64,000 nucleotides of DNA from Streptomonospora litoralis (GTDB lineage: Bacteria; Actinomycetota; Actinomycetes; Streptosporangiales; Streptosporangiaceae): positions 677,101-741,100 of the forward strand of contig NZ_CP036455.1 of the NCBI RefSeq assembly GCF_004323735.1, in the 5' to 3' direction. The notes under the pieces are model-generated. The model did no database searches, had not been told where the DNA came from, and worked only from the letters and a program-made list of their open reading frames with translations. Both the position numbers and the translations under genes were made by a program. Positions 5,710 through 50,567 of the stretch are shown here, one piece after another. Position 1 is the stretch's first letter. Each line of letters opens with the position of its first letter.

Positions 5710-6690
5710 TCAGCCGGCCGCGGTGTCGGCGGCCGTGCGCCCGGTGTGGAACTCCCAGGCGTCGGCGACGATGCGGTGCAGTTCGGGGCGGCGCGGTGTC
5801 CAGCCGAGTTCGCGCCGCGCGCTCTCGCTGGAGGCGACCAGGGTCGCCGGATCGCCGGGGCGGCGCTCGGCGGAGACCGCCGGGACGGGGTGGCCGGTGA
5901 CCTTGCGGCACACGTCGATGACCTCGCGCACGGAGAACCCGGTGCCGTTGCCGAGGTTGAAGACGCGGTGCTCGCCGGGGCGGCAGCCGTCCAGGGCCAG
6001 CAGGTGGGCCTCGGCGAGGTCGGCGACGTGGATGTAGTCGCGCACGCAGCTGCCGTCGGCGGTGGGGTAGTCCTCGCCGTAGACGGCGACGGACTCGCGC
6101 AGGCCGCGGGCCACCTGCAGCACGATCGGGATGAGGTGGGTCTCGGGGTCGTGGCGCTCGCCGAGCCCCGCGTAGGCTCCGGCCACGTTGAAGTAGCGCA
6201 GGCTGACCGCGCCGATGCCGTGCAGGCGGGCGTACTCGGTCAGGGCGGTGTCGATGGCGGCCTTGGAGGCGCCGTAGGGGTTGCCCGGGCGCACGGGGGC
6301 GTCCTCGGGGATCGGGGAGGACTCGGGTTCGCCGTAGACGGCGGCGGTGGAGGAGAAGACGATGCGCCCGACCCCGTGGGTGCGCATCGCTTCCAGCAGC
6401 GCCAGGGTGCAGCCGAGGTTGCCGTCCCAGTAGCGCTCCGGGTGGGCCACCGACTCCGGCACCACCGATCGCGCGGCGAAGTGCAGGACTGCCTCGGCTC
6501 CGGTCTCGGCCAGCACCTCGGCGCCGCGCTCGCGGATGCCGCCCTCGAACAGGCGGCAGCCCGCGGGGACGGCGTCGCGGTGCCCGGTGGACAGGTCGTC
6601 GAGTACGGACACCTCGTGGCCTGCTTCGAGCAACTGGGCCGCGACGACACTGCCGATGTAGCCGGCGCCGCCGGTGACGAGGACTCTCAA
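5710..6690 (-). CDS. galE: UDP-glucose 4-epimerase
   Basis: Interconverts UDP-galactose and UDP-glucose, completing the Leloir pathway and linking it to the UDP-sugars used by the surface-polymer genes of this region. It is a 326-residue extended short-chain dehydrogenase. The NAD-binding GGAGYIGS is at residues 7-14, the catalytic Ser/Thr stretch SSTAAVYG at 113-120, and the YxxxK pair is Tyr139 and Lys143. The start is TTG at 6690, chosen because AAGGAG lies just upstream and the codon overlaps the galT stop in a TTGA arrangement, which suggests translational coupling. A gap of about 100 bases separates it from galK. Confidence 0.94.
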   Translation of the reverse strand: MRVLVTGGAGYIGSVVAAQLLEAGHEVSVLDDLSTGHRDAVPAGCRLFEGGIRERGAEVLAETGAEAVLHFAARSVVPESVAHPERYWDGNLGCTLALLEAMRTHGVGRIVFSSTAAVYGEPESSPIPEDAPVRPGNPYGASKAAIDTALTEYARLHGIGAVSLRYFNVAGAYAGLGERHDPETHLIPIVLQVARGLRESVAVYGEDYPTADGSCVRDYIHVADLAEAHLLALDGCRPGEHRVFNLGNGTGFSVREVIDVCRKVTGHPVPAVSAERRPGDPATLVASSESARRELGWTPRRPELHRIVADAWEFHTGRTAADTAAG

Positions 6691-22130: not shown

Positions 22131-22805
22131 GGCGGCGGGGCGGGTTGGGCCTGCTGTGCGGTCTTGTTGGTCTGCCGGGCGACGGGTGGCCTCACGGAAA
22201 AGCGGCGGCGACGGTGGCGGATGGCCGGGCCTGCGCCCATCGGTTCGGGTGCTCGCCGGTGGTCCGTGTGGGGGGCGGCAGCGGTCCGCTGGGCGGCCTT
22301 GTTGGTCTGCCGGGTGGCGGGTGGTCTTGCCTGGAAAGCGGCGGCGAGGGCGGCGGTGGGCCGGGCCCGGTCACCGGTTCGGGTGCTCGCCGGTGACGGT
22401 TGCGGCGGGGCGGGTTGGGCCTGCTGTGCGGTCTTGTTGGTCTGCCGGGCGACGGGTGGCCTCACGGAAAAGCGGCGGCGAGGGCGGCGGATGGCCGGGC
22501 CTGCGCCCATCGGTTCGGGTGCTCGCCGGTGGTCCGTGTGGGGGGCGGCAGCGGTCCGCTGGGCGGCCTTGTTGGTCTGCCGGGAAGCGGGTGACCTCAC
22601 GGGGAACGACGGGCACCGAGGACAGCGGAGGGCTGCCCCCGCGGTCGACGGGTCGGGTGCTCGCCGGTGGCGGTTGCGGCGGGTCGGGTCTGCTGGGCGG
22701 TCTTGCTGGTCGGCCGGGCGGCGGGTGGTCTTGCCTGGAAAGCGGCGGCGAGGGCGGCGGTGGGCCGGGCCTGCGGTCGGCGGTTCGGGTGCTCGCCGGT
22801 GGCGG
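22131..22805 (+). repeat. array A1: five direct ~135-base repeats, G-rich strand on top
   Basis: The shared box GGGTGCTCGCCGG recurs at 22247, 22381, 22517, 22655 and 22787, a spacing of 134, 136, 138 and 132 bases. Each unit also holds a TTGTTGGTCTGCCGGG-type box and a GGAAA/GAAAAGCGGCGGCG box. There is a higher-order period of 270 bases: about 22132-22314 repeats at 22402-22584 with only two or three changes. The top strand is strongly G-rich with many GGG runs. Confidence 0.9.
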
Positions 22806-22926
22806 CGGCCAGCGGGGGCCGCCCCCCCGGGGGTGGGTATTCATCACAACACCTCCGTGCGGAGCCGGTGTTGCACTCACCCCCTGAACCCGCGTCCCTG
22901 CAGACAGACGCGGCGCGGCTTGGCCC

Positions 22927-22987
22927 GTCTATCGCGAACTTATGGTCGCAGGTAAGCGTATTCCGCGGCCATAAGTTCGCGATAGAC
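22927..22987. repeat. 61-base palindrome of copy A
   Basis: Two perfect 19-base arms, GTCTATCGCGAACTTATGG and its complement, flank a 23-base spacer. It is the most AT-rich part of the element. The same structure, including the spacer with one change in its middle part, is present in reverse at 49369-49427. Confidence 0.85.
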
Positions 22988-23126
22988 GCCGGGTGAACCG
23001 GCATACCGGACATACCGGCACCGGTTGGCCGACGTGGTACCGCCGTGTTGTGGCCGGACTCGCACCGGGCGGAGGCCGCGCGGCGGGGTGCGGTCGCGGG
23101 CGCCCGCACGGCCCCGGTGGTGCGCC

Positions 23127-23481
23127 GGATCGGGGGCCGAGGTGGCGACGACACGTCGCTCGTGGCGCCCGAGCGCGGCCTCCGGGTGCCCCACCCCCGA
23201 TGGGGTGGACTTTTGGGGGGCTATGCCCGTTTTGCGGGTGGCCTCGGCGGGCGCGGTGGCGACGAGGTGCACGAAAAGTCGACGTCAGGGGCGTTCTTTG
23301 CGCCATTCGGCGCGCCTCGTGCGCCACCGCCGCCGCAGCGCGGCTGCGAGCCCACCGGGAACTCGGGCATCAGTGGGCAAAACACCCCCCGTTCTTTCGT
23401 ATCGCGGAATGACAATGCGAGGACAGCACCTCGGGGCGACACCGAGGCGGATGCCGCCGCACGTATGTGCATCTCGTGGCC
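23127..23481. repeat. conserved 355-base core of copy A
   Basis: Aligns end to end, without a visible large gap, with the reverse strand of 48957-49312. A block of 57 bases (23269-23325) is identical in both. It contains a chain of short hairpins: CCACCCC-CGAT-GGGGTGG, CCCG-TTTTG-CGGG, GGCG-TTCTTTG-CGCC and GCGCC-ATTC-GGCGC, the last two inside an outer GCACGA...TCGTGC pair. The loops and arms are kept in copy B. I read this as a structured DNA or RNA, not a gene. Confidence 0.75.
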
Positions 23482-23560
23482 CCGACCCGGCTGCCCGACC
23501 GCCGCCTCGACCGCCGCAGGCCCGGCCCCGCCGCCGTCGTCGCCGCCCCCGTCGCGCGCG

Positions 23561-24095
23561 CCACCGGCGGGCACCCGGCCCGTTGGGCGCGGGCCAAGCC
23601 CTCCGCCACCGTTGCCGCCGCTTTTCAGTCAAGACCACCCGCCACCCGGCAGACCACAAGGCCGCCCAGCAGACCCGAGCCGCCCCGCCGCACGCCCAAC
23701 CGGCGAGCACCCGACCCGTCAACCGCAGGCCCGGCCATCCGCCGACCTCGGCGCCGCTTTTCAGTCAAGACCACCCGCCACCCGGCAGGCTGACAAGGCC
23801 GCCCAGCGGATCCGAGCCGCCCCGTCGGCTGCCGCCACCGGCGGGCACCCGACCCGTCAACCGCAGGCCCGGCCATCCGCCGACCTCGGCGCCGCTTTTC
23901 AGTCAAGACCACCCGCCACCCGGCAGGCTGACAAGGCCGCCCAGCGGATCCGAGCCGCCCCGTCGGCTGCCGCCACCGGCGAGCACCCGGCCCGTCAACC
24001 GCAGGCCCGGTCATCCGCCGACCTCGGCGCCGCTTTTCAGCCAAGACCACCCGCCACCCGGCAGACCACAAGGCCGCACAGCAGGCCGGAGCCGC
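23561..24095 (-). repeat. array A2: four ~137-base repeats, inverted relative to A1
   Basis: The reverse complement of the A1 box appears as GCACCCGGCCCG or GCACCCGACCCG at 23571, 23707, 23845 and 23983, followed by a trailing partial unit to about 24095. Units starting at 23707 and 23845 are identical over 137 consecutive bases, so this is a very recent tandem duplication. The top strand is C-rich, mirroring A1. Confidence 0.9.
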
Positions 24096-24112
24096 CATCC
24101 CCGCCCCTGCTT

Positions 24113-48422: not shown

Positions 48423-48479
48423 CGACGAGACGGCCGCGGGGCCCTGACCACAGCGCCTAGAGGCCGTGTTCAAGAACAC

Positions 48480-48885
48480 CGGTCTGCTGTGCGGTCCTGT
48501 TGGGCTTTGTTGGTCGGACGACGGGCGGTCTTCACCGGAAAGCCGCGGCGACGGTGGTGGATGGCCGGGCCTGCGGTGGGCGGGTCGGGTGCCCGCCGGT
48601 GGCGGTGGTCGGCGGAGGGCGGCCCCGGTCTGCTGTGCGGCCTTGTTGGTCGGCCGGGTGGCGGGTGGTCTTGGCTGAAAAGCGGCGCCGAGGTCGGTGG
48701 GTGGCCGGGCCTGCGGTTGACGGGCCGGGTGCTCGCCGGTTGGGCGTGCGGCGGGGCGGCTCGGGTCCGCTGGGCGGCCTTGTCAGCCTGCCGGGTGGCG
48801 GGTGGTCTTGACTGAAAAGCGGCGCCGAGGTCCGCGGAGGGCTTGGCCCGCGCCCAACGGGCCGGGTGCCCGCCGGTGGTGGTCG
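48480..48885 (+). repeat. array B1: three ~138-base repeats, G-rich strand on top
   Basis: The box GGGTGCCCGCCGG or GGGTGCTCGCCGG occurs at 48587, 48727 and 48864 (spacing 140 and 137). Corresponds to array A2 read in reverse. The outer end, CTGCTGTGCGG near 48484, matches the outer end of A2 near 24080. A 14-base dyad GTGTTCAAGAACAC (48466-48479) abuts the array. Confidence 0.85.
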
Positions 48886-48956
48886 CGGCGGAGGGGCGGC
48901 GTTGGCGGCGGGGCCCGGCCTGGGGTGGTCGGCGGCGGTCATGCAGCAGGTTCAAG

Positions 48957-49312
48957 GCCACGAGATGCACGTAGATGCGGCGGCATCGGCCTCGGCGCCG
49001 CCCCGAGGCGCCACCCTCGTACGGTCATTCCGCGATACGAAACAACGCGGGGTGTTTTATCCGCCAATGCCCGATTCCTCGTTGGGTCCGCACCCGCGCT
49101 GCGGCGGCGAGGGCGCACGAGGCGCGCCGAATGGCGCAAAGAACGCCCCTGACGTCGACTTTTCGTGCGTCTCGTGGCCGTTGCGCCCGCCGAGGTCGCC
49201 CGCAAAACGGGCATAGGCTCCCAAAAGTCCACCCCATCGGGGGGTGGGGCACCCGTCGGCGACGCCCGGGCGCCACGAGCGACGTGTCGTCGCCCCCTCG
49301 GCCCCCGATCCG
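48957..49312. repeat. conserved core of copy B
   Basis: The reverse strand aligns along its whole length with 23127-23481. The block 49112-49168 is the exact reverse complement of 23269-23325 (57 bases). The same short hairpins are present, for instance GCCCG-TTTTG-CGGGC, which has one more base pair than in copy A. Confidence 0.75.
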
Positions 49313-49368
49313 GCCCCCTTCGGGTCGTGCCAGCGCCGGTATGTCCCTATGTCGGCCCATCCGGCGAT

Positions 49369-49427
49369 GTATCGCGAACTTATGGCCGCGGAATACGCTT
49401 TCCTGCGACCATAAGTTCACGATAGAC
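49369..49427. repeat. palindrome of copy B
   Basis: Arms GTATCGCGAACTTATGG and CCATAAGTTCACGATAGAC with one internal mismatch, the reverse of the palindrome at 22927-22987. The spacer differs from the copy A spacer by one base in its middle part. A further shared stretch, GGGCCAAGCCGCG, follows on the outer side. Confidence 0.8.
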
Positions 49428-49549
49428 GGGCCAAGCCGCGGGACCGGTGCCACCTATTGCGGGGTCTCGACCAGACAGCGGCCGCAATCCGGTGGAAACC
49501 GCGCAATAGATGCGCCGACCGGCCCCCGGTGGCCCAACGCCGCCCCCCG

Positions 49550-49785
49550 CCGCAACCGCCACCGGCGGGCACCCTACCCGTCGACCGCGGGGGCAGCCCT
49601 CCGCTGTCCTCGGTGCCCGTCGTTCCCCGTGAGGCCACCCGCACCCCGGCAGATCAACAAGACCGCACAGCAGACCCGACCCGCCCCGCCGCCGCCCACT
49701 GCCACCGGCGAGCACCCGACCCGATGACCGCGGAGCCCGGCCCTTCGCCGTCCTCGGCGCCGCTTCTCCGCACGACCGCCGGACA
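49550..49785 (-). repeat. array B2: two ~140-base repeats, inverted relative to B1
   Basis: GCACCC boxes at 49569 and 49712. Corresponds to array A1 read in reverse, with fewer units (two against five). It ends just before the GDPD stop codon at 49791, leaving no room for a separate terminator. Confidence 0.8.
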
Positions 49786-49790
49786 CCCGG

Positions 49791-50567
49791 CTAACCGTCC
49801 TTCAACGCCGCCACCACTCCCGGCACGTCGTCCACGACCACGGCGTCCACGCCCGCATCGGTGAAGCGGGCCGCGTCCACCGGGTCGGGGCACCAGGAGA
49901 CGACCTCCAGGCCCGCGCGGTGGGCGACGTCGACGGTGTAGGCGACTTCGCGGCGGCCCGGGCGCGGGGGATCGCCGGCGAGGCCGAAGGAGCGGGCGTC
50001 GATCGCCACGATCGCGCAGCCCAGGCCGGCGGCGCCGGCCACCGCCTGGTCCAGCGGGTTGCGCACGAAGGGCATCCACGCCAGGGGGACCTCCGGAGCG
50101 TTCTCGCGCAGCCACAGCAGCGCCGCCGGGTCGAAGGAGCAGACGAACACGCGCTCGCGGCCGGCCGCCGCGCGCCGGCGCGCGGCCTCGCGGCGCAGCG
50201 CCGGCAGCAGCAGGGCCGCGGTCCGCCTCTCGGGTGCGTCGACCGCGTCCTCCATCACGGTCTTGACGTCCACGTCGATCCCGATCCCGACGGGCACGGC
50301 CGCGAGCGCCTCCTCCAGGCCCAGCAGACCCGCGTCGCGGCACTCCTGCTCGGGCAGGTCGACGATCACCCTCCCGTCGGGCAGCGCCGCGTCGTGGTGG
50401 AGTACGAGGGCGTCGTCGGCGGTGCGCCGTACGTCGATCTCGACCCACTGCGCCCCGGCGCCGACCGCCGCCAGGTAGGAGGCCGCCGAGTTCTCCGGAT
50501 AGCCCGACTCGCCGCCGCGCCCGGAACCGCGGTGCCCGATCACCTCGGGCGCGCTGAAGACGGTCAC
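49791..50567 (-). CDS. glycerophosphodiester phosphodiesterase family protein
   Basis: A 258-residue GDPD TIM-barrel protein that splits glycerophosphodiesters into an alcohol and glycerol-3-phosphate; some relatives cut teichoic-type polymers. Active-site motifs are IGHRGSG (10-16) with His12, YPENS (23-27), VEIDVRRTADD (42-52) and the second catalytic His in LHHDA (56-60). No signal peptide is seen, so it acts in the cytoplasm. The GTG at 50567 overlaps the upstream cytidylyltransferase stop (GTGA), so the two genes are coupled. The pairing of a cytidylyltransferase with a GDPD by a polymer exporter fits a role in polyol-phosphate turnover. Confidence 0.85.
   Translation of the reverse strand: MTVFSAPEVIGHRGSGRGGESGYPENSAASYLAAVGAGAQWVEIDVRRTADDALVLHHDAALPDGRVIVDLPEQECRDAGLLGLEEALAAVPVGIGIDVDVKTVMEDAVDAPERRTAALLLPALRREAARRRAAAGRERVFVCSFDPAALLWLRENAPEVPLAWMPFVRNPLDQAVAGAAGLGCAIVAIDARSFGLAGDPPRPGRREVAYTVDVAHRAGLEVVSWCPDPVDAARFTDAGVDAVVVDDVPGVVAALKDG

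Follow-up and report, generated by a model that had tools for sequence, protein, structure and literature searches.

A probable family of foldback-shaped, non-autonomous transposons at about 100 loci of the Streptomonospora litoralis chromosome

Architecture of the composite repeat and size of the family

The window analysed, a stretch of 64,000 nucleotides of the S. litoralis chromosome, harboured two copies of a composite repeat (A and B). Copy A was found between the 3′ end of a biotin carboxylase gene and the 5′ end of a dicarboxylate symporter gene, and copy B was flanked by the 3′ ends of a glycosyltransferase gene and a GDPD gene, the nearest named relatives of a glycosyltransferase of the window in the genome collection including those of Streptomonospora sp. 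PA3 (89%), S. alba (87%) and S. mangrovi (86%). The modules of both copies were located as follows:

22132-22805, plus strand: left arm of copy A, five A units of ~135 bp directed at the core (TRF, repeat finding)
22836-22895, plus strand: S module of copy A, optional, hairpin-like by eye
22926-22990, plus strand: P palindrome of copy A, 82 genomic sites at ≤3 mismatches
22991-23115, plus strand: D module of copy A, separating P from C
23116-23480, plus strand: C core module of copy A, non-coding
23563-24096, minus strand: right arm of copy A, four A units in the reverse direction (TRF, repeat finding)
48462-48477, plus strand: T1 terminal inverted repeat of copy B, GGCCGTGTTCAAGAAC, with CTA immediately outside (48457-48459)
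48477-48890, plus strand: left arm of copy B, three A units (TRF, repeat finding)
48957-49314, minus strand: C core of copy B
49370-49428, minus strand: P palindrome of copy B
49441-49530, minus strand: Q module of copy B, optional
49547-49791, minus strand: right arm of copy B, two A units, ending at the GDPD stop codon (49791-49793, minus strand)

Three tandem arrays were detected by TRF, two of them in copy A (22132-22805, period of 135 bp, 5.0 copies, score 713; and 23542-24096, period of 138 bp, 4.0 copies, score 813) and one in copy B (48522-48900, period of 137 bp, 2.7 copies). According to repeat finding in the window, the five direct units in the left arm of copy A were spaced by 135/135/135/134 bases, the four in its right arm by 136/138/138, and the three in the left arm of copy B by 140/137, while long inverted pairs linked the two arms within each copy. 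Hence, both the order of array, palindrome, core and inverted array that the earlier note had described, and its counts of 5 + 4 and 3 + 2 units, were recovered with these methods and module mapping in the two copies, which lay in opposite orientations. Copy B had been correctly located by that note, but it proved to be wider than 48480-49785, with the CTA at 48457, the terminal repeat at 48462-48477 and its end at ~49791; likewise, the core was present, but what had been taken as a single core comprised the sub-modules S or Q, P, D and C. One recognisable terminal repeat was retained in copy B; for copy A, none was found on the left or on the right, which makes it a poor type copy. A CRISPR array was ruled out, as the ~135-bp units were contiguous and did not form short repeats with unique spacers, in agreement with the previous reading of the arrays.

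The element had been presented as having two copies, and its reality had been made dependent on their recurring elsewhere. They belonged, in fact, to a family occupying roughly 100 loci of the 5.7-Mb chromosome, which was estimated to account for ~2% of the 5.81-Mb genome (~100 spans of ~1 kb). In particular, the P palindrome appeared at the 82 sites given above, a 40-base piece of the core at 51 sites and the terminal-repeat pattern at 63 sites, while the reversed-pattern control gave 0 sites for each of them. Moreover, a 661-base core query yielded at least 39 further long matches (~460-660 bases, 81-98% identity) distributed chromosome-wide, copy B not being among the matches listed. A total of 116 loci were mapped, corresponding to 114 stretches fetched around pattern sites and the two window copies. 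All of them had at least one module: P was present in 80, some C in 76 and both in 56, so that P occurred without detected C in 24 of 80 loci and C without P in 20 of 76, and a recognisable terminal repeat was found in 52 of the 116. Element spans had a median of 1023 bp and a maximum of 1964 bp (n = 101), about half of them exceeding 1 kb, and the 22 elements with two ends ranged from 225 to 1849 bp. The shortest of these were two derivatives of 225 and 288 bp (L107, 1464-1688, and L167, respectively) that kept little besides their ends.

A full-length member was ~1-1.9 kb long and consisted of terminal repeats, two arms of one to five ~135-bp units and a core, following the plan T2 end, inward array, core, inward array and T1 end. 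The core presented the optional modules S, Q or R followed by P, D and C in this order, usually including the 61-bp palindrome, or otherwise it carried X, an alternative module of ~200 bases that, in 12 copies, stood in place of P together with the initial portion of D. Across 91 mapped loci with 325 units, those of opposite arms pointed towards one another, the sole exception (L120) being two elements side by side, and the orientation of the core along the chromosome was free. Among the 19 two-ended copies enclosing a core, 14 carried T2 at the end nearer to P and T1 at the end nearer to C, three showed the reverse polarity (L054, L073 and L086) and two had T1 at both ends (L109 and L180). 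Furthermore, two X-bearing elements lying ~20 kb apart (L129 and L146, at 4.78 and 4.76 Mb) were nearly identical in X, which may point to recent local copying, and an 815-bp element (L071, G000:C1:952606-953420) was placed between two sequences resembling, by eye, tRNA-Met genes.

Ends, target sites and genomic setting

Where the outer ends were retained, they read TA followed by AGCCGTGTTTAAGAA and then the T1 or T2 sequence. At the three positions just before the terminal repeat, C was seen 58 times, T 66 times and A 61 times among the 74 mapped ends, while positions farther out were mixed. TA was found on both sides of 14 of the 22 two-ended copies, nine of which had the form C-TA...TA-G, and the other eight did not have TA on both sides. 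The possibility of an IS5-type derivative with a 4-base duplication was also considered and rejected, as the same four bases appeared on both sides in only two of the 22 copies (L060 and L067). The title of a 1991 report by Tenzen and Ohtsubo is said to describe an IS630-associated transposon preferring TA in CTAG.

The earlier note had proposed empty-site orthologues as a sign of mobility. The joined flanks of five elements were compared with five congeners, and junction-spanning matches were obtained for three of them: L060 in congener G107, L122 in G107 and G030, and L167 in G128. In addition, a fourth congener (G147) gave split matches for L060 and L122 that were consistent with empty sites. 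For L122, the frame ended in ...PGQL-TAG in G107 and in ...RGQR-TAG in G030, while in this genome it ended in ...PGQL-TA-A, the element splitting the stop codon of the gene and the final A of TAA being its own base. In the case of L060, the congeners kept the TA beside the right-hand flank, and for L167 the alignment was poor right at the junction. No empty site was found in the five congeners for L109, whose flanks were 1.7-4.2 kb apart with other sequence between them, nor for L174, which was matched on one side only. Because of the shared ends, the TA on both sides and the uninterrupted sites in congeners, the element is read as a transposon, which bears out its earlier description as a MITE-like passenger.

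The composite is therefore considered, with a probability of roughly 0.87, to represent one family of non-autonomous, foldback-shaped DNA transposons with a target choice like that of IS630/Tc1-mariner and with recombination between copies. The enzyme responsible would have been an IS630/Tc1-mariner-type transposase, which was not found in this genome; cutting at the terminal repeats, it would have inserted the element at the TA within CTAG. Many insertions would lie at gene ends or close to them, as these positions would be tolerated. Subsequently, homologous recombination would have exchanged core modules and led to the gain or loss of array units, and many copies, copy A included, would have lost their ends. 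It is very unlikely that ectopic recombination or gene conversion, instead of transposition, was what spread the arrays: signs of recombination between copies were present, and terminal repeats were absent from a group of four close relatives (copy A and the loci at 607 k, 647 k and 1077 k), both of which would fit such a spread, but it leaves the insertion into TA with terminal repeats and the empty sites unexplained.

The genes neighbouring 101 elements, as predicted by a simple codon-bias caller, were convergent in 30 cases, tandem in 49, divergent in seven and unclear in 15, compared with nine convergent, 28 tandem and eight divergent among the window's own gene pairs. Moreover, gene 3′ ends were the closer ones, at a median distance of 76 bp from the elements (n = 109), against 240 bp for 5′ ends (n = 63). 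Most of this placement at gene ends would follow from a target of TA in CTAG close to stop codons. The distribution along the chromosome bears on another suggestion of the earlier note, a DNA site that organises the chromosome, to which a part in segregation may be added. Inward arms around a palindrome at ~100 sites, one per ~56 kb, and a mild excess in a single bin of 0.5 Mb (18 of the 103 sites, P-value of 0.045) would suit such a role; however, the spacing of the 103 sites was as expected at random (CV of 1.02, random range of 0.82-1.18), the core orientation was free and the palindrome was absent from five congeners, so this role has hardly any probability.

Core modules, palindrome and exchange between copies

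The absence of a transposase gene noted earlier was confirmed for the core. In the 58 C copies compared, 91 of 95 indels were not multiples of three and all six frames carried stops, in 33-38 of the copies. Thus, a conserved frame in the core was excluded and the core is predicted to encode no protein; open reading frames ran through the arrays, the indel and stop analysis covering core C only.

The palindrome itself was real, as previously claimed: when folded as RNA, P of copy A (22926-22990) reached −45.6 kcal/mol, versus −16.7 (sd of 2.6) over 200 shuffles (z of −11). Its arms stayed paired across 77 copies, where 1174 of 1309 cells were Watson-Crick, 94 G-U, 18 A-C and 23 other, as read on the P-to-C strand. 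One pair clearly varied (C-G in 29 copies, T-A in 26, T-G in 17, C-A in four and T-C in one). The excess of G-U may reflect shared descent, since 80 of the 94 cells were located in two pairs, while elsewhere G-U and A-C were equal (14 and 14). Regarding conservation, the mean pairwise identity between copies was 0.89 for P and R, 0.84 for C, 0.83 for Q and D, 0.81 for T1, 0.79 for T2 and 0.76 for A units, the value for P being, if anything, too low, as it was computed on copies of mixed strand. The R module, a near-perfect 54-bp palindrome, looked like an insertion into the core accompanied by a duplication of three bases, CGC (e.g. L009 compared with copy B), and may be a nested mini-element.

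A palindrome more alike between copies (0.89) than the ends (0.79-0.81) is not predicted by mobility alone. P may be of use to the element or to the host; alternatively, conversion may keep its inverted repeats alike. A once-mobile element that is now kept by the host for the P hairpin, acting, for example, as an intergenic two-way transcription terminator or mRNA end, or as a protein-binding site, would account for P being, together with R, the most conserved module (C 0.84, A 0.76), for the pairing of its arms retained in 77 copies, for the nearby gene 3′ ends with common convergent pairs, and for the persistence of P in the 24 loci where no C was found. On the other hand, C likewise persisted without P in 20 loci, the 12 X-type copies did without P, no T run was observed by eye beside P, the G-U excess came mostly from two pairs and may be due to shared descent, and the CTAG target alone may explain the closeness to stop codons. 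Taken together, this alternative is regarded as unlikely. Also unlikely, and offered as speculation, is a bacterial lineage of the foldback class whose facing arms would keep ~100 copies exchanging modules and whose P would have been adopted by the host as a dispersed 3′-end or DNA-binding signal.

The structured RNA locus suggested by the earlier note did not find support for the core either. Both strands of the 58 C copies were folded with RNAalifold, giving weak consensus structures with almost no two-sided change and no convincing covariation, and the Rfam scan of the window gave no match at gathering thresholds. The strong P hairpin, the R, S and Q palindromes recognised by eye and the lower consensus energy of C in the P-to-C sense (−55 vs. 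−47 in antisense) could be expected from a family of large structured non-coding RNA genes, but the difference between senses was small and about 100 copies were recognised in one genome only, which renders such a gene family highly improbable.

Coming back to the transposon family, its copies show signs of having exchanged modules by recombination. The distances obtained from the two halves of C had a correlation of 0.056, versus 0.27 for random column splits (minimum of 0.19 out of 20). Furthermore, the nearest-neighbour core belonged to the same class in 39 of 58 cases, versus 38.6 by chance from the class sizes (12 X-type and 46 other), X-type and other cores forming no separate groups. 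Array units, in turn, kept their position. The nearest neighbour of 187 of 254 units at another locus was located in the same arm (mean of 130 and maximum of 158 in 500 shuffles), and for 103 of the 254 it also shared the rank within that arm (mean of 54 and maximum of 75). When neighbours of the same locus were allowed, the nearest one was within the own locus for 44 of the 254 units. This set excluded two hits in L080 that had been flagged as exceptions in orientation; the centre computed for this locus was displaced by a stray match to D at 6488, and its order is the usual one. Thus, the match of units by position that had been noted between copies A and B held family-wide. As unit positions were kept, whole elements would have moved and modules would have been exchanged later, an order of events that is itself inferred; the earlier proposal that the composite moved or duplicated as a whole fits these units, but it overlooked the shuffling of modules among copies.

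Host range and relation to known elements

The family was recognised in this genome only among the genomes searched, and no Nocardiopsaceae-wide set, which the earlier note had proposed to gather, was obtained. The P palindrome was absent from the five congeners and, allowing ≤3 mismatches, from 393 other genomes of the class, and the T2 30-mer was absent from 199 other genomes of the family. The exact P pattern was not found in an 85k-species collection, which may omit the source species itself. Moreover, neither P nor the terminal repeat was found in IMG/VR, the core had no match among plasmids or phages and T2 had none in plasmids, considering that pattern searches detect near-identical sequences only. 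When the core was compared with 200 genomes of the family, scoring the best three candidates per genome, 108 of them matched at E ≤ 0.001, the window's own genome included, and the best match beyond it had an E of 5e−7 over 72 bases. These matches were read as chance GC-rich likeness because those listed were short, and diverged relatives may be missed because the best three candidates per genome were scored. Similarly, the regions orthologous to copy B in 80 relatives contained only one short, chance-like match to D (46 bases, 78%). The family looks private to this lineage, as judged from these searches, and it is not brand new, given that C copies differ by about 16%.

The search of the genome with PF13358 identified one IS630 in three near-identical copies, whose ends (TA followed by GTGTTCTGCGCCTGAAATCC) were unlike those of the element (TA followed by AGCCGTGTTTAAGAA). 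One of these copies (G000:C1:1968776; L170 and L181) was inserted exactly at the TA beside the T2 end of an element, and the other two were located in CTAG. No DUF4096 transposase (PF13340) was found in the genome, and no element combining these terminal repeats with a transposase gene was seen with the two profiles. We infer the mobilising enzyme because no partner with matching ends was found; it may have been lost or may belong to a family other than PF13358 and PF13340.

Foldback architecture is familiar from eukaryotic transposons, such as the FB elements of Drosophila, which have long inverted arms of tandem sub-repeats around a middle domain, and Tm1 is reportedly a Mutator/Foldback element of nematodes. 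The long inverted arms of tandem sub-repeats around a core found here follow the same plan, a likeness of plan only, FB and Tm1 being eukaryotic. TIMEs, which are said, by title, to be mosaic non-autonomous elements derived from Tn3, share with this family the mosaic and non-autonomous nature, but here the signature was TA. As in MITEs, no transposase gene was present in the C core, terminal inverted repeats were observed and TA was duplicated (14 of 22); the ends shared with an autonomous IS that also characterise MITEs were not found, as those of the resident IS630 differ and no DUF4096 match was obtained. Regarding size, MITEs are given as 50-1000 bp in PMC4596501, compared with 225-1849 bp for the two-ended copies and more than 1 kb for about half of the 101 spans. 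The element thus works like a MITE with an IS630-like target choice, yet it is not a standard one, often being larger, with arms made of facing tandem arrays and without a parent IS found.

BrickBuilt and MITE464/PgRS of Porphyromonas gingivalis are non-autonomous, intergenic elements with terminal inverted repeats and a variable internal tandem array (PMC4596501). According to the same text, BrickBuilt has one array of 23-nt units, its 19 copies in the strain studied include four with both ends, and these ends closely resemble the ones that IS5-family elements have in its host. It would be the nearest bacterial parallel among the systems compared, as a MITE with one internal minisatellite: both are non-autonomous and intergenic, with terminal repeats, tandem repeats in variable copy number and most copies lacking an intact pair of ends, while here two facing arrays of ~135-bp units surround a core at ~100 loci, with TA at CTAG and no matching IS found. 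Correia elements, with a length of 100-155 bp, resemble this family in having no transposase, terminal repeats and TA duplication, and NIMEs in their mosaic make-up of 20-bp dRS3 and 30-160-bp RS repeats, concentrated in intergenic arrays of 200-2700 bp, although neither presents facing arms with a fixed core in the portion of PMC3898611 at hand. Insertion into TA with its duplication is also shared with ISY100, of the IS630/Tc1-mariner group (PMC2170065), but here there was no transposase gene and the resident IS630 ends differed. Finally, MITEPsy1 of Pseudomonas syringae, listed in PMC3189936 as a 100-nt element with the targets CTAG or YTAA, the annotation 'IS5?' and a duplication of 4 nt, is similarly non-autonomous with terminal repeats and a CTAG target, while a 4-base duplication would fit only two of 22 copies here.

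In the literature searched, no bacterial element was found in which two tandem arrays face each other across a core. Nor did that literature show a bacterial mobile element of foldback design whose core is reshuffled between copies, the MITE-like kind as such being known. A bacterial foldback family would allow asking what gives rise to arms of tandem repeats and how non-autonomous elements keep recombining once the transposase is gone. As a separate observation, a different palindromic insertion of ~217 bp was present in S. mangrovi (L229, 4487-4709), adjoining the 3′ end of the glycosyltransferase gene and reading CTA-GGGCGTGTTTTATGGATGCC...CCATAAAACACGCCC-TAG, with a terminal repeat that resembles that of the foldback family.
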